Of a stretch of DNA of 64,000 bases, positions 5,498-13,628 are shown one piece after another. The translations under genes and the position numbers were made by a program. Each line of letters opens with the position of its first letter. The first letter of the stretch is position 1. The stretch is from Bradyrhizobium sp. ORS 285 (GTDB taxonomy: Bacteria > Pseudomonadota > Alphaproteobacteria > Rhizobiales > Xanthobacteraceae), in the NCBI RefSeq assembly GCF_900176205.1, contig NZ_LT859959.1, positions 6,933,001-6,997,000 of the forward strand, given 5' to 3'. Under the pieces are notes generated by a model that saw only the letters and a list, made by a program, of their open reading frames with translations, was not told the DNA's origin and did not search any database.

Positions 5498-7036
5498 CTA
5501 CTGACCCGCCCCCTCGCGCAGCTTGAAGCGCTGGATCTTGCCGGTCGCGGTCTTCGGCAAGGAATCCACCACCTCGATCCAGCGCGGATATTTCCACGGG
5601 CCGATCTTCTGCTTGACGTGATCCTTGAGCGCTTCGTGCAGCGTCTCGCGGTCGACGCTCGGGCGCAGCACGACGTAGGCCTTTGGCTTCAACAGCCCTT
5701 CCGGATCCGCGTCGGGCACGACGGCGGCTTCCAGCACCGAGGGATGGGTGATCAGCGCGCTTTCGACCTCGAACGGCGACACCCAGATGCCGGAGACCTT
5801 GAACATGTCGTCGGAGCGGCCGCAGAAGGTATAGCGGCCGTCGGCGTCGCGGACATATTTGTCGCCGGTGCGCGTCCAATAGCCCTCGAAGGTCGAGCGC
5901 GTCTTGTGGCGCTGATTCCAATAGCCTTCGCCGGCCGAGGGCGCGTGCACCAGCATCTCGCCGACCTCGCCGTCGGGCACGTCTTGCCCGGCCTCGTTGA
6001 CGAGCCGCACCTGATAGCCGGGCACCGGGCGGCCCGCGGAGCCATATTTGATGTCGCCGGGCGCGTTCGACAGGAAGATGTGCAACAGCTCGGTCGAGCC
6101 GACGCCGTCGAGAATGTCGACGCCGAAGCGCGCCTTCCAGGCATTGCCAACCGACTCCGGCAGCGCCTCGCCGGCCGAGGTGCAGATGCGCAAGGCGGAG
6201 CCCGCCTTCTCATGACGCAGCGACTCGTCGTGCAGCATCGCGGCGAACAAGGTCGGCACGCCGTAGAAGATGGTCGGGTTGTAGCGGTTCATCAGTTTGA
6301 ACATCAAAGCCGGCGTCGGGCGCTCGGAGTTGAGGATCGTGGTGGCGCCGACCGAGAGCGGGAAGGTCAGCGCATTGCCGAGGCCGTAGGCGAAGAACAG
6401 CTTTGCGGCGGAGAGGCAGACGTCGCTCTCGCGGATGCCGAGCACCTGGCTGGCATAGGTCTCGGCCGTGGCGGCGAGATTGCCGTGGAGATGGCGGACG
6501 CCCTTGGGCATGCCGGTCGAGCCAGAGGAGTAAAGCCAGAACGCCGGCTCGTCCTCATGCGTCGCGACCGTGTCGAACTGATCGCTCTCGCGCGCGATCT
6601 CGTCCGACAGCAGCTTGTGGCCGAACGCGTTCGCGCCTGAGACCACGACGCAGTCGAGATCGGGCATCCGCCCGACGATGTCCTTCACGACCGGATACAG
6701 CGCCTCCGAGACGAACAGCACGCGGGCGCGGCAGTCCGCCAGCACATAGGCATATTGCTCCGAGGTCAGCAGCGTGTTGAGCGGCACCGGGACGATGCCG
6801 GCGCGCATGCTGCCTAAGAACACCGCGGGGAAATCCACCGTGTCGAGCATGATCATCGCCACGCGCTCCTCGCGGCGGACGCCGAGGCGGCGCAGCAGGT
6901 TGGAAACGCGGCAGCTCTGCTGCTGCAGGCCGCGATAGGTCAGCTCGGAGACCGTGTCGGTGTAGGCGAGCTTGTCGCCGCGTCCGGCCTCGACATTGCG
7001 GTCAAGCAGCCATGACACCGCATTGTACGACTTCAC
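5498..7036 (-). CDS. bclA: benzoate-CoA ligase family protein
   Basis: A 512-residue adenylate-forming enzyme close to benzoate-CoA ligases. It should activate benzoate (or a related aromatic acid) with ATP and CoA to benzoyl-CoA, the substrate of BoxAB. The AMP-binding P-loop YSSGSTGMPKGVRH lies about one third along, TGDKYVRDADGRYTF contains the A8-type hinge Asp, and the catalytic Lys is in KTATGKIQRFKLRE at the C-terminus. The N-terminus (NAVSWLLDRNVEAGRGDKLA) is typical of the benzoate/4-hydroxybenzoate ligase group. It is divergent from boxR across 109 bp holding a perfect palindrome, and heads the minus-strand ligase-hydrolase-boxC-boxB run. Activity on substituted benzoates cannot be excluded. 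Confidence 0.92.
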   Translation of the reverse strand: MKSYNAVSWLLDRNVEAGRGDKLAYTDTVSELTYRGLQQQSCRVSNLLRRLGVRREERVAMIMLDTVDFPAVFLGSMRAGIVPVPLNTLLTSEQYAYVLADCRARVLFVSEALYPVVKDIVGRMPDLDCVVVSGANAFGHKLLSDEIARESDQFDTVATHEDEPAFWLYSSGSTGMPKGVRHLHGNLAATAETYASQVLGIRESDVCLSAAKLFFAYGLGNALTFPLSVGATTILNSERPTPALMFKLMNRYNPTIFYGVPTLFAAMLHDESLRHEKAGSALRICTSAGEALPESVGNAWKARFGVDILDGVGSTELLHIFLSNAPGDIKYGSAGRPVPGYQVRLVNEAGQDVPDGEVGEMLVHAPSAGEGYWNQRHKTRSTFEGYWTRTGDKYVRDADGRYTFCGRSDDMFKVSGIWVSPFEVESALITHPSVLEAAVVPDADPEGLLKPKAYVVLRPSVDRETLHEALKDHVKQKIGPWKYPRWIEVVDSLPKTATGKIQRFKLREGAGQ

Positions 7037-7056
7037 GGCGTTCCTCCCCCGATTTT

Positions 7057-7070
7057 TGAATTATAATTCA
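7057..7070. promoter_or_regulatory. perfect 14-bp palindrome in the bclA-boxR intergenic region
   Basis: The sequence tgaattataattca is a perfect palindrome lying 20 bp upstream of the bclA start and 75 bp upstream of boxR. Its AT-richness contrasts with the GC-rich surroundings. It may be a regulator binding site for both divergent genes, but it lacks the TGCA core seen at 4498-4556, so BoxR binding is not assured. Confidence 0.45.
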
Positions 7071-7145
7071 TAGAAGGCCACCAACATCGCTTGCTGTCAA
7101 TCCTCCTCGGCATTATGTTTCATAAACAAAGAGTGCCTCAGGGAT

Positions 7146-8066
7146 ATGACGCCACACAGCGACGCCCCGCGCGACGACGGCCAGTCCGCAGCCGAGACCG
7201 ATTTCCTCGACCAGCTGGGCCAGCGGGTGCGGCGGATGCGCGGCCTCGCCGGCATGTCGCGCAAGGTGCTGGCCGAGGTCTCCGGTATTTCCGAGCGCTA
7301 CATCGCCCAGCTCGAAAGCGGCAAGGGCAACGTGTCGATCGTGCTGCTGCGCCGCATCGCCAATGCGATCAACGCGCCGCTCGACGACATCATTCCCGGC
7401 GGCGAGCCGTCGCCGGACTGGCCGGTCATCCGCGACCTCCTGAAGAAGGCGAGCCCGAGCCAGATCGCGCAGGTCAAGGAGCTGCTCGCCGGCGGCGGCT
7501 CGGCGCCGTTGCGGCGCACCTTCTCCGGCATCGCGCTGATCGGCCTGCGCGGCGCCGGCAAATCGACGCTGGGCAGAATGCTCGCGGAGCGGATCGGCTG
7601 GAGCTTCGTCGAGCTCAACAAGGAGATCGAGCGGCAGAACGGACTCTCCGTCGCCGAGATCATCGCGCTCTACGGCCAGGAAGGCTTTCGCCGCATGGAG
7701 CAGGCCGCGCTGCTGCAACTGCTGGCGCGGAAAGAGCTGATGGTGCTGGCGACCGGCGGCGGCATCGTCTCCGAGCCGGTGACCTTCGATCTCATTCTGA
7801 ATGCGTTCTACACGATCTGGCTCAAGGCCGAGCCGGAGGAGCACATGGGGCGCGTGCGCAAGCAGGGCGACCTGCGCCCGATGGCCGACGACCGCTCGGC
7901 GATGGCCGAGCTGCGCAACATTCTCGCGAGCCGCGAGCCGCTGTATGCGCGAGCCAATGCGGTGGTCGATACGGCAGGGCTGACCGTGGATGCGGCGGCC
8001 ACGCGGCTCGGCGAGGCGGTGAAGCCGGTAATTGCGAACGAAGCGCGGATGTTTGCGCGGGGATGA
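7146..8066 (+). CDS. boxR: BoxR-type regulator: XRE domain fused to a shikimate-kinase-like domain
   Basis: A 306-residue two-domain regulator. Residues about 20-85 form an XRE helix-turn-helix (VLAEVSGISERYIAQLESGK). Residues about 130-300 are a shikimate-kinase-like P-loop domain with the Walker A GLRGAGKST and a shikimate-kinase-like LATGGGIV. In BoxR/BzdR proteins this domain senses benzoyl-CoA and relieves repression of benzoate genes. It is divergent from the ligase gene, which fits control of the whole minus-strand box run. The ribosome binding site before the ATG at 7146 is weak (aggga). Confidence 0.95.
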   Translation: MTPHSDAPRDDGQSAAETDFLDQLGQRVRRMRGLAGMSRKVLAEVSGISERYIAQLESGKGNVSIVLLRRIANAINAPLDDIIPGGEPSPDWPVIRDLLKKASPSQIAQVKELLAGGGSAPLRRTFSGIALIGLRGAGKSTLGRMLAERIGWSFVELNKEIERQNGLSVAEIIALYGQEGFRRMEQAALLQLLARKELMVLATGGGIVSEPVTFDLILNAFYTIWLKAEPEEHMGRVRKQGDLRPMADDRSAMAELRNILASREPLYARANAVVDTAGLTVDAAATRLGEAVKPVIANEARMFARG

Positions 8067-8067
8067 G

Positions 8068-8484
8068 CTAACCGCCGGTCGCGGCGATCGCGCGATCGTG
8101 GGCTTCGAGGATCGCCTTCAGTCTGTCCTTGGTGTCCTGAACGTCGGCGCCGGTCTTCTCGTCGAGCAGCAGGCCGTTGAGTGCGCTGTGAGTCAGCCTG
8201 TTGGCGACCCATTTGCGCTCGAAGCCGAGCTTGGACTGCACCGTCGAGATGATCGTGACGCAGAGCGACAGCACGGTCGCGACGGTCTTCGGGTCGAGGC
8301 CGACGATGGGACTGCCGATCTGCGACAGCACTGCGGCGGTCGCGCTGAACACCACGACGCAGACGGTGGAGCCGTGGTTGGCAAAGCTCCACCACTTCTG
8401 CCCGCGGCCGCTCCACCGCAGCGCGTCGTTCAACGTGCGCGCGACGAAATCCGCGCCCGCCTCCGGCCCATGCCCGTTCGCCAT
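8068..8484 (-). CDS. small two-helix membrane protein, unknown function
   Basis: A 138-residue protein that I do not recognise firmly. Two hydrophobic segments (about 24-44 and 52-72) are followed by a polar helix with FERKWVANRLTHSALN and a charged C-terminal tail. That layout resembles SLATT/DUF4231-type two-helix membrane proteins, but the similarity is by eye only. The start at 8484 has GGGGAGAG upstream; a longer frame to 8553 lacks support. It overlaps nothing, ends one base after boxR ends (convergent), and is separated from the upstream His-rich gene by a hairpin that probably ends that operon. Confidence 0.72.
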   Translation of the reverse strand: MANGHGPEAGADFVARTLNDALRWSGRGQKWWSFANHGSTVCVVVFSATAAVLSQIGSPIVGLDPKTVATVLSLCVTIISTVQSKLGFERKWVANRLTHSALNGLLLDEKTGADVQDTKDRLKAILEAHDRAIAATGG

Positions 8485-8535
8485 CGTTCTCTCCCCAGCC
8501 GGTTCGCTCCTTGATTGAGAGACGATCCAACGACA

Positions 8536-8566
8536 ACGGCCGGCTTCGCGCAAGCGGGCCGGCCGT
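8536..8566 (-). terminator. hairpin downstream of the His-rich gene
   Basis: The arms acggccggc (8536-8544) and gccggccgt (8558-8566) form a perfect 9-bp GC-rich stem. Read on the minus strand it is followed by ttgtcgttgg, which is only moderately T-rich. It lies 24 bp past the stop of the His-rich protein and plausibly ends the guanidine operon. Confidence 0.55.
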
Positions 8567-8589: not shown

Positions 8590-9102
8590 TCAGCTGCGCG
8601 TCTCGATCTCCCGCAATTCCGCATAGGTGAGCGGCGTCAGGCCGGTGCCATCGAAATAGATGAAGCGCAGGCGGCGACGGCGGGAGATGAAGTTCGACGG
8701 CAAGGGGTCGTAGCGGAAGCTGCTGCCGCCGAGATGCGGCGTCAGGCTGCCGACATCGGTCAGCGCATCGATCTCGACGCGCAGCAGCTTCAGGCTCTCG
8801 CCCTCGCGCAGAATCTCGAACGGAATGCGCGCAAGCCGCAGGAAGCTGGTCGGATCGGGGGCTGCGATGAAGCCGTCGACGAAGGCGGCCTCGACCTTGT
8901 CGAGATCGGGCTCGACCACCGGCGCGGGCTTGGCTCCCTCGGGCTGATGCGGCGTCTGCCACTGCACGGGAGAGCGCCCGCCATGCGGATGGTTGTGGCC
9001 GGGGCCATGCGGCGGGTGATCGTGATCATGGTGATGATCATGATCGTGGGAATGACCATGATCGTGATGATGATGGCCGTGATGGTGGTGATGATGGCGC
9101 AT
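8590..9102 (-). CDS. His-rich protein of the guanidine cluster, candidate metal-binding partner
   Basis: A 170-residue protein. The first 42 residues contain 23 histidines with Asp, Gly and Pro (for example HDHDHHHDHDHPPHG), a pattern found in nickel- or zinc-storing chaperones such as HypB and UreE tails. The remaining 128 residues form an unrecognised domain with no P-loop, so it is not a HypB/GhaB GTPase, and it has no CXXC zinc motif like HypA. The ATG at 9102 lies 8 bp after the guanidine-hydrolase stop codon, so the two are almost certainly co-transcribed. Because GdmH enzymes need nickel delivered by chaperones, a metal-delivery or storage role is inferred. Confidence 0.85.
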   Translation of the reverse strand: MRHHHHHHGHHHHDHGHSHDHDHHHDHDHPPHGPGHNHPHGGRSPVQWQTPHQPEGAKPAPVVEPDLDKVEAAFVDGFIAAPDPTSFLRLARIPFEILREGESLKLLRVEIDALTDVGSLTPHLGGSSFRYDPLPSNFISRRRRLRFIYFDGTGLTPLTYAELREIETRS

Positions 9103-9110
9103 CGCGGACC

Positions 9111-10316
9111 TCAGAAGCTGACGGGCTTGTTGATGATATGCTTGTGGCTGCCGAGCTTGCCGTGGGCGACCATCGAGCCGAGCGCCTCGACGACCACGCG
9201 GACGCCGATCAGCGCGGTGATGTCCGAGGTGTCGTAGGGCGGCGAGACCTCGACCACCTCCAGCCCGCACAGGCCCTCGGCGGCGACGAGGCCGAGCAGC
9301 TTGAGCGCCTCGCGCGGCAGGAAGCCGCCGGGCTCGGGCCAGCCGGTGCCGGGCACGAAGCCGCAATCGATGGAGTCGACGTCGAACGAGATGTAGACGG
9401 CGTCGGCATCCTTCCAGGCCAGCTCCAGCGCGATCTCGGCGGTCTTCTCCAGGCCGATCTTCTCGATGTCGGCGATGGTCAGCACGTTGGTGTTGCGCTT
9501 GCGCGCGACCTCGACGCCCTCGCGCGGCACCTGCCAGCCGCCGATGCCGAGCTGCACCAGGTTGGTCGGCGACACATTCGGCAGGTTGGTCGCCCAATAC
9601 CAGGGCGTGGTGTGCATGCGCTCGTCGAGATCCTTTTCCTGGATGTCGATGTGACGGTCGAAATGGATGATGCCGATACGCTTGTCGGTGCACTGCGCGA
9701 TGCCGCGCACGCAAGGAAAGCCGATCGAGTGGTCGCCGCCGAGCATGATCGGCAGCGCGCCGGACGAGGCCACATGAGCGACGCCGCGGCTGATCTGGTC
9801 GAAGCTCTTTTCGAGATTCGCGGGGATGGTGAAAACGTCGCCGGCATCGCACAACGTCATCTGCTCGCGCAGATCGACGCCGAGCTCGTAGTTATAGGGC
9901 GTGTAGAGCGCGGAGATGCGGCGGATGCCCTGCGGCCCGAAGCGGGTGCCGGGGCGATAGGTGGTGCCGGAATCGAAGGGGATGCCGATCACGGCGGCAT
10001 CGTACTTGCCGACGTCGCGAACATTCTCGACATAGGGCGCCTTCATGAAGGTGTTGATCCCTGCGAAATGCGGCAGCTCGCCGCGCGCAAACGTCGGGAT
10101 GTCGCGATCGGTCAGCGTGTCGGCGCCGGGCAGGCCCATGTCGAGCGCCCATTGCCGCTCCTTGCGCCAGCCGTTGGTCGGCAGCTTGCCCTCGGCCTCC
10201 AACGCCTGCCAGCCCTGCGTGGCCATCTTGTCGAAATCCGGATGATGCCGGCGCGTGACCTGGCGTTGCGGCTGCAGGCCGGCACGGCGGGTGCGCCGCA
10301 TGGCGGGGAATGGCAT
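9111..10316 (-). CDS. gdmH: agmatinase-family ureohydrolase, probable Ni-dependent guanidine hydrolase
   Basis: A 401-residue ureohydrolase. Metal-ligand motifs of the arginase/agmatinase fold are visible: GGDH (H196), HFDRHID (D220, H222, D224) and SFDVD (D312, D314), followed by PGTGWPEPGG. The usual DAH is DRH here, and an approximately 80-residue N-terminal extension makes it longer than agmatinases (about 310). Both traits recall the cyanobacterial guanidine hydrolase GdmH, which hydrolyses guanidine to urea and ammonia with Ni2+. The context is strong: it is encoded downstream of an ABC transporter under a guanidine-I riboswitch. The start at 10316 has AAGGAG upstream. Agmatinase or guanidinobutyrase activity is the alternative. 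Confidence 0.87.
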   Translation of the reverse strand: MPFPAMRRTRRAGLQPQRQVTRRHHPDFDKMATQGWQALEAEGKLPTNGWRKERQWALDMGLPGADTLTDRDIPTFARGELPHFAGINTFMKAPYVENVRDVGKYDAAVIGIPFDSGTTYRPGTRFGPQGIRRISALYTPYNYELGVDLREQMTLCDAGDVFTIPANLEKSFDQISRGVAHVASSGALPIMLGGDHSIGFPCVRGIAQCTDKRIGIIHFDRHIDIQEKDLDERMHTTPWYWATNLPNVSPTNLVQLGIGGWQVPREGVEVARKRNTNVLTIADIEKIGLEKTAEIALELAWKDADAVYISFDVDSIDCGFVPGTGWPEPGGFLPREALKLLGLVAAEGLCGLEVVEVSPPYDTSDITALIGVRVVVEALGSMVAHGKLGSHKHIINKPVSF

Positions 10317-10343
10317 GGAGTTCTCCTTCGTTTCTTCTGGGTG

Positions 10344-11117
10344 TTATTGCGCCGCCTGCACGCTGGCGCGGATGAAGCCGAGCACGGGCACCGCGCTGTC
10401 GCGGGCGAGGTCGAGATCGTAGGTGATGCGCGCGCCAAAGCGCTCCGGCGCCTGCGGATCCTTGCGCGGACGGTCGAGTGCAATCAGCCGTGTCGCCAGG
10501 CCGAAGGCCTCCTTGATGTCGTGGGTGACCATCACGATGGTCATGTTGTGCTCGCGCCACAGCGGCTTGATCAGGGCATGCATCTGCGCGCGGGTCCCGG
10601 GGTCGAGCGCACCGAAGGGCTCGTCGAGCAGCAAGACGCGCGGCTGCTTGGCGAGCGCCTGCGCAATCGCCAGCCGCTGCTGCATGCCGCCCGACAGCGC
10701 GCTCGGATATTTGTCGGCGTGCGGCCCGAGGCCGACCGCCTCGATCAGCGCGCGGCTCTTCTCCACCGCGTCCTTACGCGCTGACCCGAACAGCCGCGCC
10801 GTGAGCGGGCTGGCCGCGAGTTCATAGCCGAGCAGCACGTTGCCGAGCACGGTCAGATGCGGGAACACCGAGTAGCGCTGAAAAACGATGCCACGGTCCG
10901 GGCCGGGCTCCGCCGGGAACGGCTGGCCGTCGAGCAGCACGGCACCCTGGCTCGGCCGTTCCTGGCCGAGGATCAGGCGCAGGAACGTGCTCTTGCCGGC
11001 GCCGGAGGGGCCGACGATCGAGAGGAACGTGCCGGAGGCGATCTCGAGATTGATGCGCTCGAGTACGACCTGATTGCCGTACTCGACCCAGACGTTGCGG
11101 AAGGACAGCGTGCTCAT
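10344..11117 (-). CDS. ABC transporter ATP-binding protein, putative guanidine uptake
   Basis: A 257-residue ATPase of the nitrate/sulfonate/taurine class. Walker A is GPSGAGKST near residue 40, the signature is LSGGMQQR and Walker B is VLLLDEPFGAL. The frame extends upstream to 11168, but the ATG at 11117 (MSTLSFRNVWVEYG) has AGGGAG upstream and overlaps the permease stop by one base (TGATG), which suggests translational coupling. It energises the permease encoded immediately upstream. The substrate is assigned from the guanidine riboswitch and the hydrolase gene 27 bp downstream. Confidence 0.92.
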   Translation of the reverse strand: MSTLSFRNVWVEYGNQVVLERINLEIASGTFLSIVGPSGAGKSTFLRLILGQERPSQGAVLLDGQPFPAEPGPDRGIVFQRYSVFPHLTVLGNVLLGYELAASPLTARLFGSARKDAVEKSRALIEAVGLGPHADKYPSALSGGMQQRLAIAQALAKQPRVLLLDEPFGALDPGTRAQMHALIKPLWREHNMTIVMVTHDIKEAFGLATRLIALDRPRKDPQAPERFGARITYDLDLARDSAVPVLGFIRASVQAAQ

Positions 11118-11938
11118 CAGCGGCTCCCTTGCGCATAGGCCCAGGGAAAGGCGCGCCGACCGAACCACACCAGAGCGTAGTCGAAGATGTAGGCAAGCAA
11201 GGTGATCCAGACGACGTAGGGCAGAATCACATCCATCGACAGATAGCGCCGGACCAGGAAGATGCGATAGCCGAGCCCGACGTCGGAGGCGATCGCTTCC
11301 GCGGAGATCAGGAACAGGAAGGCCGGGCCAATCATCAGCCTGAGACCCTGGATCAGCCGCGGCATGATCTGCGGCAGCACCACGCGGATCGCGACCTGCC
11401 AGGTCGAGGCACCCAGCGTCTGCGCCTTGATGAGCTGCTCGCGCGGCATGTTCTGCACTTCGAGAGAGAGATCGCGCACCAATGTCGGGGTGACGCCGAT
11501 GATGATCAGCACCACCTTGGACAATTCACCGAGGCCGAACACGATGAACAGCACCGGCAGCACCGCCATCGGCGGGATCATCGACAGCACCGCGACCAGC
11601 GTGCCAAAGCCGGCGCCGGCGATCGGAAGCAAACCGATGGCGAGGCCCAGCGTAAGGCCGATCGCGGCGGAGATGCCGAGCCCGAGCGCGAGCCGTTGCA
11701 GGCTCGCCGCCGTGTCCGACCACAGCACGTAGTCGCCGGAGCGCCGATCCGGCTCGGTGGCGAGTCGCTTCGACGTCGCGACCATCTCCGACACCGGCGG
11801 CAGCAGCTTGTCGTCGGGGTTGTCAGCCCGCCGCTGCGCCGAGCCGACCACGTAGATCAGCGCGATCAGCAGGAACGGCAGGAGAGCCAGGAGCAGCCGG
11901 CTGCCGCGGTTCGGAACGACGTTCATCGCACGCAGCAT
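11117..11938 (-). CDS. ABC transporter permease, putative guanidine uptake
   Basis: A 273-residue inner-membrane permease of the SsuC/NrtB type. It has an N-terminal helix (LLLALLPFLLIALIYVVG), a periplasmic loop and about five further hydrophobic segments. The EAA loop that contacts the ATPase is around KAQTLGASTWQVAIRVVLP. The start at 11938 has GGAG upstream; an internal ATG at 11926 is the alternative. A 221-bp gap with a palindromic repeat separates it from the binding-protein gene upstream, unusual inside such an operon and possibly a way to lower permease expression relative to the binding protein. Confidence 0.92.
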   Translation of the reverse strand: MLRAMNVVPNRGSRLLLALLPFLLIALIYVVGSAQRRADNPDDKLLPPVSEMVATSKRLATEPDRRSGDYVLWSDTAASLQRLALGLGISAAIGLTLGLAIGLLPIAGAGFGTLVAVLSMIPPMAVLPVLFIVFGLGELSKVVLIIIGVTPTLVRDLSLEVQNMPREQLIKAQTLGASTWQVAIRVVLPQIMPRLIQGLRLMIGPAFLFLISAEAIASDVGLGYRIFLVRRYLSMDVILPYVVWITLLAYIFDYALVWFGRRAFPWAYAQGSR

Positions 11939-12022
11939 CAGAAGGCTCCGTCATTCCTCGTCATGAACACGCCACTCATGCTGTACGCCGGGCATGCTGA
12001 AATGTGCAGCGCCGCCCTCGAC

Positions 12023-12135
12023 TCTCAACCCTTATGGTGAGGAGGCGCGTAGCGCCGTCTCGAACCATGAGGCCTGAGCTGGGGCCTCATCCTTCGAGAC
12101 GCTCGCTTGCGCGAGCTCCTCAGGATGAGGGTGGG
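12023..12135. repeat. palindromic element, ctcaaccctyatggtgagga family
   Basis: An inverted-repeat element with the phrases atggtgaggag, gtctcgaaccatgaggcc, cctcatccttcgagacgc and ctcctcaggatgagg. It matches the copy at 50281-50397 closely. It lies inside the guanidine operon, between the binding-protein and permease genes. Confidence 0.85.
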
Positions 12136-12159
12136 CAGCGCTGCACGGCGATGGATCGA

Positions 12160-13230
12160 TCAGAGCTTCCCGTCGGCCGCCATCTTCATGTAGGTGGGAT
12201 CGAAGCGCAGCTTCACGTTAGTCGTCGATCCCAGCGCCTTCGATGGCGTCGAGATGCCAACCGCGTCCTTCGACTTCACGTTCTCGCCGAGCAGATTGTG
12301 GTCGAAGCAGAAGGTGCGGACGTGGTCCATGATCTTCGGCAGCTCCGGCCCGGTCATGAAGGCGAGCGCGTCCTTCGGCTCGTAGTACATGAACGTGGTC
12401 TTGAGCTGGGTCTCGAAGCCCGCGAGATCCGTGCCGGAGAGCTTGGCCATGGCCTCGCGCGCGGCCTTGCCCTTCTCGCTCTGATCCTTCATCAGCGCGA
12501 TGGTCTCGTACCAGATGCCCGTCAGGGCCTTGCCGAGCTCCGGGTTATCCTTCAGCGTCTGCGTATTGACGACCAGCAGATCCTCGATCTCGGCCGGGAT
12601 CTTGCTGGAATCGAACACCAGGGTGGCGCCGGGCTCCGCCTTCACTTCGAGCAGTTGCGGATTCCAGGTGACGACCGCAGTCGTATCCGGCGACTTCGCC
12701 GCGGCGACGATGTCGGCGTCGGATGTGTTGACCGTCTTGATGTTCTTTTCGGAGAGCTTCACCGTCTCGAGCCCGCGCGCCAGCAGATAATGCGACACCG
12801 AGAGCTCGACGAGGTTGACCTTCTGGCCCTTGATGTCGGCCAGCGTCTTGCCCTTCTTCAGGACCACGCCGTCATTGCCGTTGGAATAGTCGCCCATGAT
12901 GATGGCTGACGTATCGACGCCACCCGCGGCGGGAATCGTCAGCGCATCCATGTTCGTGACGGTGACGCCGTCGAACTTGCCGGCGGTGTACTGGTTGATC
13001 GACTCGACGTAGTCGTTGATCTGCGTGACCTTGATCGAGATGCCGTATTTGTCGGCCCATTTCTTGACGATCCCGGACTCGGCGGCATAGGGCCACGGCA
13101 TCCAGCCGACATAGATCGTCCAGGCGATGTTGAATTCCTTCTTCTTCTCGGCGAGAGCCGGCGACAGCGAGGCAGTCGCCAGCGTGGATGCCGCGAGCAG
13201 GGCAACAAACAGATTTCGTGCTTTTCCCAT
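12160..13230 (-). CDS. periplasmic substrate-binding protein, guanidine/urea-carboxylase-associated type
   Basis: A 356-residue binding protein with a signal peptide (MGKARNLFVALLAASTLATA, cleavage after ALA). The mature start KKKEFNIAWTIYVGWMPWPY is typical of the NMT1/TauA-like family found next to urea (guanidine) carboxylase genes. It should bind the substrate in the periplasm and pass it to the permease. The ATG at 13230 has GAGGGA upstream; the frame stays open to 13404 but that stretch is the riboswitch. It is the first gene after the riboswitch, 76 bp downstream of the aptamer. Guanidine as ligand is inferred from that control. Confidence 0.92.
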   Translation of the reverse strand: MGKARNLFVALLAASTLATASLSPALAEKKKEFNIAWTIYVGWMPWPYAAESGIVKKWADKYGISIKVTQINDYVESINQYTAGKFDGVTVTNMDALTIPAAGGVDTSAIIMGDYSNGNDGVVLKKGKTLADIKGQKVNLVELSVSHYLLARGLETVKLSEKNIKTVNTSDADIVAAAKSPDTTAVVTWNPQLLEVKAEPGATLVFDSSKIPAEIEDLLVVNTQTLKDNPELGKALTGIWYETIALMKDQSEKGKAAREAMAKLSGTDLAGFETQLKTTFMYYEPKDALAFMTGPELPKIMDHVRTFCFDHNLLGENVKSKDAVGISTPSKALGSTTNVKLRFDPTYMKMAADGKL

Positions 13231-13306
13231 ATCCAGTCCCTCATCGGTTTTGTGACCTGCGGACTGGCAAAGACAACCTCGAGCCTGCCAAGCGCGGCCA
13301 CTGAGG

Positions 13307-13400
13307 TCTCCCGGGTTTTTATCCCGCCGTGCACCAGGGCTCTCCCCTGGCGGCTGCTCTCGGACCAGCATTCTCGTGAGGAGAACCGGAACCCTAGCTG
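13307..13400 (-). promoter_or_regulatory. guanidine-I (ykkC class) riboswitch
   Basis: Read on the minus strand the 94-nt segment has the conserved blocks of the guanidine-I aptamer in order: ctagggttccg near 13397, then a stem, then tggtccgagag, then a second stem (ccagggg...ccctgg), then acggcgggataaaaaccc and the terminal cccgggaga at 13315-13307. The spacing and sequence fit the ykkC consensus. The start codon of the transporter binding protein is 76 nt downstream. The expression platform is not obvious; no strong terminator with a T-run is seen. Ligand binding is known for the class, not tested here. Confidence 0.95.
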
Positions 13401-13628
13401 CCAACTCTAAGCAACGAGATCAGCAAGTGACGTGCCAGAGGAAAATGCTTGCGATTCAACGGAACGCACGGCAGCCTGTGCCCAAAAAGCTGGCAGGCCG
13501 AATTCTTCTTGGGCGGTGGGGCTGATCGCAGGGCAACGGCCATGCATCGATGGCATGAACCGGTTGACGCGCGCGGGCGACCTCATCACGCCGGCACAAC
13601 CGTGGCCGTGGTTTGGAGTCTCTACGTC

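Follow-up and report, generated by a model that had tools for sequence, protein, structure and literature searches.

The 64,000-nucleotide stretch of Bradyrhizobium sp. ORS 285 DNA analyzed here (the window, from a genome of 7.80 Mb) very probably carries a guanidine-assimilation operon, in which we include a histidine-rich protein as the proposed supplier of Ni2+ to GdmH, the guanidinase. Five open reading frames (ORFs), all on the minus strand, lie behind a guanidine-I riboswitch aptamer in the order substrate-binding protein, permease, ATPase, ureohydrolase and histidine-rich protein. A preliminary description of this DNA had named these genes in this order after the aptamer, which is borne out with all of them on the same strand, and had read them as riboswitch-controlled guanidine uptake and hydrolysis. 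The aptamer match, the orthology of the enzyme and the gene set argue for that reading. The histidine-rich protein, which was merely listed there, is the least known part of the operon. The features are as follows.

13306..13408, minus strand: guanidine-I (ykkC) riboswitch aptamer (RF00442, 90.5 bits; aptamer upstream in 77 of 80 related gdmH loci)
13230..13305, minus strand: leader between the aptamer and the start of the substrate-binding protein gene, probable expression platform (two alternative hairpins)
12160..13230, minus strand: ATP-binding cassette (ABC) substrate-binding protein, 356 amino acids, presumed to bind guanidine (NCBIfam TIGR03427; Pfam NMT1)
12088..12127, minus strand: palindromic element in the gap between the substrate-binding protein and permease genes (sequence pattern)
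11117..11938, minus strand: ABC permease, 273 amino acids (Pfam BPD_transp_1, 64.5 bits)
10344..11117, minus strand: ABC ATPase, 257 amino acids (Pfam ABC_tran, 111.3 bits)
9111..10316, minus strand: predicted GdmH-type guanidinase, 401 amino acids (PDB scores, tree, T119 and W326)
8590..9102, minus strand: histidine-rich protein, 170 amino acids, candidate nickel chaperone or reservoir for GdmH (co-occurrence with gdmH, conserved family)

The permease and ATPase genes share a stop/start overlap (TGATG). The start of the histidine-rich gene is the ATG at 9102; a mechanical ORF listing gives a longer ORF with a GTG start (8590-9852) instead.

In the mechanism we propose, guanidine would bind the aptamer and turn the operon on, and the ABC transporter would bring guanidine into the cell. 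The GdmH-type hydrolase, presumably nickel-dependent, would convert it to urea and ammonium, and a urease encoded elsewhere in the genome would complete the breakdown of urea. The histidine-rich protein would bind Ni2+ with its disordered histidine tail and pass the metal to GdmH via its conserved domain, thereby taking the role of the HypA/HypB-like GhaAB of Synechocystis.

The aptamer had been placed at 13400-13307 in the preliminary description. A covariance-model search with Rfam RF00442 matches positions 13408-13306 (minus strand) over the full model (1-107) with 90.5 bits (E 5.6e-15), well over the gathering score of 63; the position holds and the earlier ends are off by 1-8 nucleotides. 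Neither the window nor the rest of the genome has another guanidine-I match. For comparison we used the loci of the best 80 of 587 confirmed relatives, from named genomes. Because these are the closest of the 587 they are not a random sample, and because many come from few genera (Mesorhizobium, Ancylobacter, Sinorhizobium) locus counts do not represent independent events. In 77 of the 80, gdmH is preceded by an aptamer on its own strand, as judged with a home-built model of 22 aptamers, 21 of which come from the same loci and match by construction; this recurrence argues against a chance match in the window. Two of the remaining loci (L013 and L081) start within the permease gene or immediately ahead of it, and the third (L062) has no match to the home-built model upstream of gdmH despite having room for one. 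In one locus (L016) the aptamer is 7.4 kb upstream of gdmH. Most Ancylobacter loci are minimal, with the aptamer directly before gdmH, the histidine-rich gene after it and no adjacent transporter. The aptamer class suggests that guanidine is the ligand and would serve as the switch for the operon.

The 401-residue enzyme is, by its sequence, an orthologue of guanidinase (GdmH). Searched against all PDB sequences, it scores 548.7 bits with Synechocystis GdmH (7esr/7oi1) and 526.6 bits with the Nitrospira inopinata guanidinase (9fek), followed in third place by guanidinobutyrase at 176.3 bits; PDB agmatinases reach at most 137.7 bits. Identity with GdmH is 65% (232 of 356 aligned residues). The protein matches the arginase-family Pfam model PF00491 with 257.4 bits and carries GGDHS, DRHID and SFDVDSID, which we take to be the metal motifs of the arginase family, and it falls under the cut-off of the NCBIfam agmatinase model TIGR01230 (161.6 versus 174.3 bits). 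The specificity of GdmH for guanidine is stated to hinge on Thr97 and Trp305 (PMC11410670). T119 and W326 of the window enzyme align with these residues, a numbering that assumes a two-residue offset of the 392-residue GdmH chain. The tryptophan position is occupied by threonine in guanidinobutyrase, guanidinopropionase, proclavaminate amidinohydrolase, arginase and an arginase-like protein of the same genome. When that genome is searched with the 401-residue query, only one other arginase-family match comes up, and its PDB scores mark it as an arginase.

In a maximum-likelihood tree of 18 sequences, the window enzyme, GdmH and the N. inopinata enzyme form one clade (bootstrap 97), and the wider guanidinase group is split from the five other ureohydrolases (bootstrap 100); the branch that joins the window enzyme to GdmH alone is weak (60). 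The enzyme thus groups with the characterized guanidinases, as the preliminary description expected; agmatinases, which that description wanted in the phylogeny, are compared by score only because the tree contains no agmatinase sequence. The two sequence-based tests proposed there for refutation, the covariance-model search and the grouping of the enzyme, both favor the earlier reading. The orthology and the active-site residues suggest that the enzyme hydrolyzes guanidine, presumably with nickel. The prediction that this is a guanidinase, and not part of an agmatine pathway, agrees with the scores, the two retained residues and the aptamer upstream. The forecast that automatic annotation would call the enzyme agmatinase agrees with database names: four annotated plasmid records name a relative of the enzyme 'agmatinase family protein' (other records carry no annotation at that place), and further database names of relatives are of the agmatinase type.

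Two other observations concern the enzyme and its relatives. GdmH-like ureohydrolases with 53-56% identity, in which threonine replaces the specificity tryptophan and which have no histidine-rich neighbor, are encoded at 7247-8416 of locus L153 and 6001-7173 of locus L113, and these possibly form a group with another substrate. In the guanidinase operon of Chthonobacter albigriseus (L050, 6573-8359), a 2-oxoglutarate/Fe(II) dioxygenase gene (PF14226, PF03171) lies between the substrate-binding protein and permease genes, together with a gene for a 242-residue companion protein without a Pfam match. By description, this pair resembles mgdH/mgdL, which act in methylguanidine demethylation and are described together with guanidine carboxylase (PMC12508155).

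The histidine-rich gene tracks gdmH closely. It follows gdmH in 79 of the 80 relatives' loci, and in the exception (L026) the contig ends 98 nucleotides past gdmH. A random draw of 398 genomes from the phylum yields gdmH in seven and the histidine-rich domain in the same seven. A class draw of 385 yields gdmH at ≥74% identity in 11, with the histidine-rich gene in all 11, and a genus draw of 146 yields both genes in the same four. These draws overlap, and pooled they give 19 distinct genomes with gdmH; in all 19 the two matches are on one contig and strand, at most 350 nucleotides apart or overlapping (G785). A family draw of 100 genomes, across which gdmH was not searched, holds five full histidine-rich matches, all with gdmH adjoining.

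The class draw also includes three more distant ureohydrolases (G547, G559 and G498; 52-56% identity), none of which comes with a histidine-rich match. Two of them are at contig ends; the third (G559) has room for a neighbor and carries threonine in place of the specificity tryptophan. Nor is there a histidine-rich gene within 6 kb in the Actinomycetota relatives (L110-L113). Conversely, the histidine-rich query matched 11 further distinct genomes without a gdmH match. Eight of these matches are to the tail only or mostly to the tail (G087, for which gdmH was sought in a 3-kb locus only, and G238, G285, G409, G634, G698, G782 and G910). The other three reach the domain but are broken or remnants: a stop interrupts the match in G600 and in G941, whereas in G818 a truncated substrate-binding protein runs into the domain. 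As for distribution, gdmH is patchy in the genus (four of 146 genomes), and the closest named relatives among the best 80 include Bradyrhizobium sp. BTAi1 and STM 3843, which we take to be photosynthetic strains.

The 170-residue protein contains 25 histidines and comprises a histidine-rich tail (about residues 1-40), GHN and QWQTPH motifs, which we read as a linker, and a conserved 109-residue domain (residues 62-170). No Pfam or NCBIfam model matches it. With residues 44-170 as the query, 1378 database proteins match at E ≤0.001; no precomputed Pfam domain is recorded for any of the 120 listed, and where these have names, the names are hypothetical or uncharacterized. We aligned 47 of 52 cluster representatives (from 82 extracted proteins and that of the window), leaving out L070, L083 and L085, whose starts are uncertain, as well as L109 and L114; for L020, L026 and L052 there was no protein that could be used. 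Across the 47 members, median values for the tail are 56 residues and 17 histidines, and it contains no cysteine. GHN occurs in 44 and QWQ..H in 45, and 13 columns are invariant. Mean column identity is 61% in the domain versus 46% in the whole protein.

In the full-length AlphaFold model, confidence is low for the tail and high for the domain at about 71-170, and the domain-only model has a predicted local distance difference test (pLDDT) score of 87 and a predicted template modeling (pTM) score of 0.71. Neither model has a clear fold relative in the PDB, a match-free result that does not show a new fold, and the full-length model has no clear relative in a viral structure library. The family profile has no PDB sequence match, and Pfam searches of the 47 members give nothing above cut-off, with two chance-level matches that are not to Hyp proteins. 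In locus L151 (about 8092-8500), a domain of this family has its histidine stretch C-terminal to the domain and continues from a truncated substrate-binding protein in another frame, and this arrangement is seemingly either an operon remnant or an assembly artefact. We also inspected seven long or odd database entries for a fusion of GdmH and the histidine-rich protein, and accepted none. One (P0156) is an apparent frame-shifted run-on into the histidine-rich gene and another (P0135) an apparent run-on from the ATPase.

In Synechocystis, the gdmH operon encodes nickel-delivery proteins (PMC12186494), and GdmH activation requires GhaAB (PMC11271267). The genes for HypA and HypB in the ORS 285 genome are clustered with hydrogenase-like ones, well away from the guanidinase operon. 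Used as queries, which more distant Hyp proteins could escape, they find no HypA match in the 80 loci and two weak HypB-like matches on the opposite strand (L033 and L051, 28-30% identity). A gene for a HupE/UreJ-family nickel permease (PF04955, 189.2 bits for one member tested) is present in 45 of the 80 loci. It lies directly downstream of the histidine-rich gene in 36 of these, with 46-155 nucleotides between the matches, and upstream of gdmH and the riboswitch in the other nine, in the Ancylobacter/Xanthobacteraceae group. Mainly because a nickel enzyme, a histidine-rich protein and a nickel permease share this cluster, we propose that the histidine-rich protein is probably the guanidinase's own nickel chaperone or reservoir. 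It also seems reasonably likely that the alphaproteobacterial guanidinase is loaded with nickel by a dedicated metallochaperone of an undescribed family and possibly of an undescribed fold, a non-orthologous replacement of HypA/HypB that often comes with a HupE-type nickel permease.

Several observations weigh against the proposed mechanism as a whole. The window and 35 of the 80 loci lack the HupE/UreJ gene, so that the nickel link in the window comes from the enzyme family and the histidine tail. Histidine-rich tails bind other metals too, and a single one of the 47 members shows weak similarity to ZrgA, a protein of zinc uptake (E 0.017). The substrate-binding protein belongs to a family that carries a putative urea transporter label, and the Shine-Dalgarno (SD) sequence of the window leader is no more occluded than in shuffled sequences (89 of 100 are at least as occluded). 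Actinobacterial relatives that keep the threonine and tryptophan (L110-L112) have no Hyp or histidine-rich matches within 6 kb. In comammox genomes no obvious dedicated nickel loader was detected, according to the part of PMC11410670 used here, and the N. inopinata guanidinase produced in E. coli is active with one nickel and one manganese (PMC11410670). The comammox and actinobacterial cases mean that a nearby chaperone is not universal, and the former also show that the nickel-loading gap exists elsewhere (PMC11410670).

An alternative, which we consider unlikely, is that the histidine-rich protein does not pass on metal but stores nickel, gives protection from metal or partners GdmH in a structural or regulatory role. 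Its tail is like the histidine-rich stretch of HypB from the same genome, and stretches of this kind have storage roles; the domain, moreover, has no similarity to chaperones, with no PDB sequence match and no Pfam match above cut-off. However, a generic store need not follow one enzyme as tightly as is seen in the 19 genomes, and the domain is more conserved than the protein as a whole.

Gene context suggests that the ABC transporter imports guanidine. For the steps after hydrolysis, the genome has two full-strength matches to urease alpha and no urea/guanidine carboxylase over cut-off. Its 16 matches to that carboxylase are pieces, mostly of biotin-carboxylase type, and three adjacent ones (C1:5129839-5133040) jointly cover model positions 3-1081. 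Because urease is encoded and no carboxylase exceeds the cut-off, conversion of guanidine to urea and then to ammonia is a consistent route. That the operon instead serves guanidine detoxification, and not nitrogen supply, is improbable: the importer-free loci of most Ancylobacter fit such a role, whereas the window operon has an importer and its genome a urease.

We find it quite improbable that the transporter carries urea or another compound, leaving the hydrolase alone to handle guanidine. The substrate-binding protein scores 553 bits (cut-off 333.9) with TIGR03427, a family named 'putative urea ABC transporter substrate-binding protein', but this name is a prediction in its own right. The transporter genes and gdmH mostly stand behind one guanidine aptamer in the 80 loci, and the permease gene adjoins gdmH in most related loci. 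In addition, guanidine import by an ABC transporter is stated for Synechocystis (PMC12186494). Finally, a different guanidino substrate for the enzyme (agmatine or some methylated guanidine, for example) would suit its relatives' agmatinase names and the demethylation-like gene pair in the C. albigriseus operon, but is made highly improbable by the retained T119 and W326, by guanidinase scores threefold those of any other PDB ureohydrolase, by the agmatinase-model score under cut-off and by the guanidine-I aptamer upstream.

The leader (13230-13305) is a probable expression platform. Two mutually exclusive hairpins (TTGGCA/TGCCAG and CCAGTCC/GGACTGG) can be drawn near the start of the substrate-binding protein gene, both in the window and in most of nine relatives, with one compensated pair, judged by eye, in L018. 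The RNAalifold consensus has the upstream hairpin with an extension only, and one of its 13 pairs is compensated. Runs of at least five T nucleotides within 200 nucleotides past the aptamer are absent from 25 of 27 leaders and present in two. We first read the leader as a translational switch that sequesters the SD sequence; control could be translational or transcriptional. SD occlusion is unremarkable against 100 shuffles each in all 10 leaders: in the nine relatives 92, 87, 6, 80, 52, 25, 18, 78 and 23 shuffles are at least as occluded, so that no leader has a count of five or below.

Some features in and around the operon are recorded for completeness. Among 168 loci, the exact palindrome pattern of 12088-12127 is present in the locus of this same genome (L003) and in no other genome's locus. 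In Bradyrhizobium sp. BTAi1 (L011, 7013-8047, minus strand) an IS110-family transposase gene splits the substrate-binding protein gene from the permease gene. Directly downstream of the histidine-rich gene on the same strand, 8068-8553 encodes a SLATT/DUF4231-like protein (DUF4231, 25.6 bits versus a cut-off of 24.7; SLATT_1, 31.4 versus 41). Beside the operon, 5498-8066 holds a gene of the benzoate-CoA-ligase family (minus strand) and, on the plus strand, one encoding a benzoate-type transcriptional regulator, part of which is shikimate-kinase-like.

A guanidine-I aptamer, ABC transporter genes, gdmH and hypA/hypB-type genes occur in one Synechocystis operon (PMC8390497, PMC12186494), and such genes are found across a wide range of microorganisms (PMC8390497). 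The aptamer-transporter-gdmH operon is therefore known already, and the window is a new alphaproteobacterial case of it. We found nothing on the histidine-rich family in the literature searched, which includes the portions used of PMC12186494, PMC11410670, PMC11399263, PMC11271267, PMC12508155 and PMC8390497; an earlier mention is possible, for example in Supplementary Data 3 of PMC8390497. Within the same scope, we did not find the family described as a constant neighbor of gdmH, often with HupE and without HypA/HypB. With the present case, the guanidinase pathway reaches many Alphaproteobacteria that live in soil or with plants, and in which its genes go by the names agmatinase, urea transporter and hypothetical protein. 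One gene family, with its 1378 database matches, emerges as the likely nickel loader, and the nickel supply of guanidinases without HypA/HypB becomes an experimentally tractable question.

Among known systems, HypB from the hydrogenase cluster of the same genome shares with the histidine-rich protein a histidine-rich tail ahead of a folded domain. The HypB domain is a GTPase, and Pfam, NCBIfam and PDB sequence searches give no link between it and the domain of the histidine-rich protein. The gdmH (sll1077) operon of Synechocystis sp. PCC 6803 resembles that of the window in its guanidine-I aptamer, ABC transporter genes and orthologous hydrolase with the same specificity residues, but it uses HypA/HypB-like GhaAB (PMC8390497, PMC12186494, PMC11271267), whereas the window operon has the histidine-rich protein and no Hyp genes. 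The N. inopinata locus likewise has an aptamer and an orthologous guanidinase (526.6 bits), and differs in having an APC permease in place of the ABC transporter and, as far as the portion of PMC11410670 used here goes, no dedicated nickel loader. Operons for metformin or dimethylguanidine hydrolases are similar in that they combine nickel-dependent ureohydrolases with HupE and with accessory genes for nickel (PMC11399263). Those enzymes, however, are heteromeric, act on another substrate, are accompanied by HypA/HypB instead of the histidine-rich protein and score only 131.6-135.9 bits with the window enzyme.

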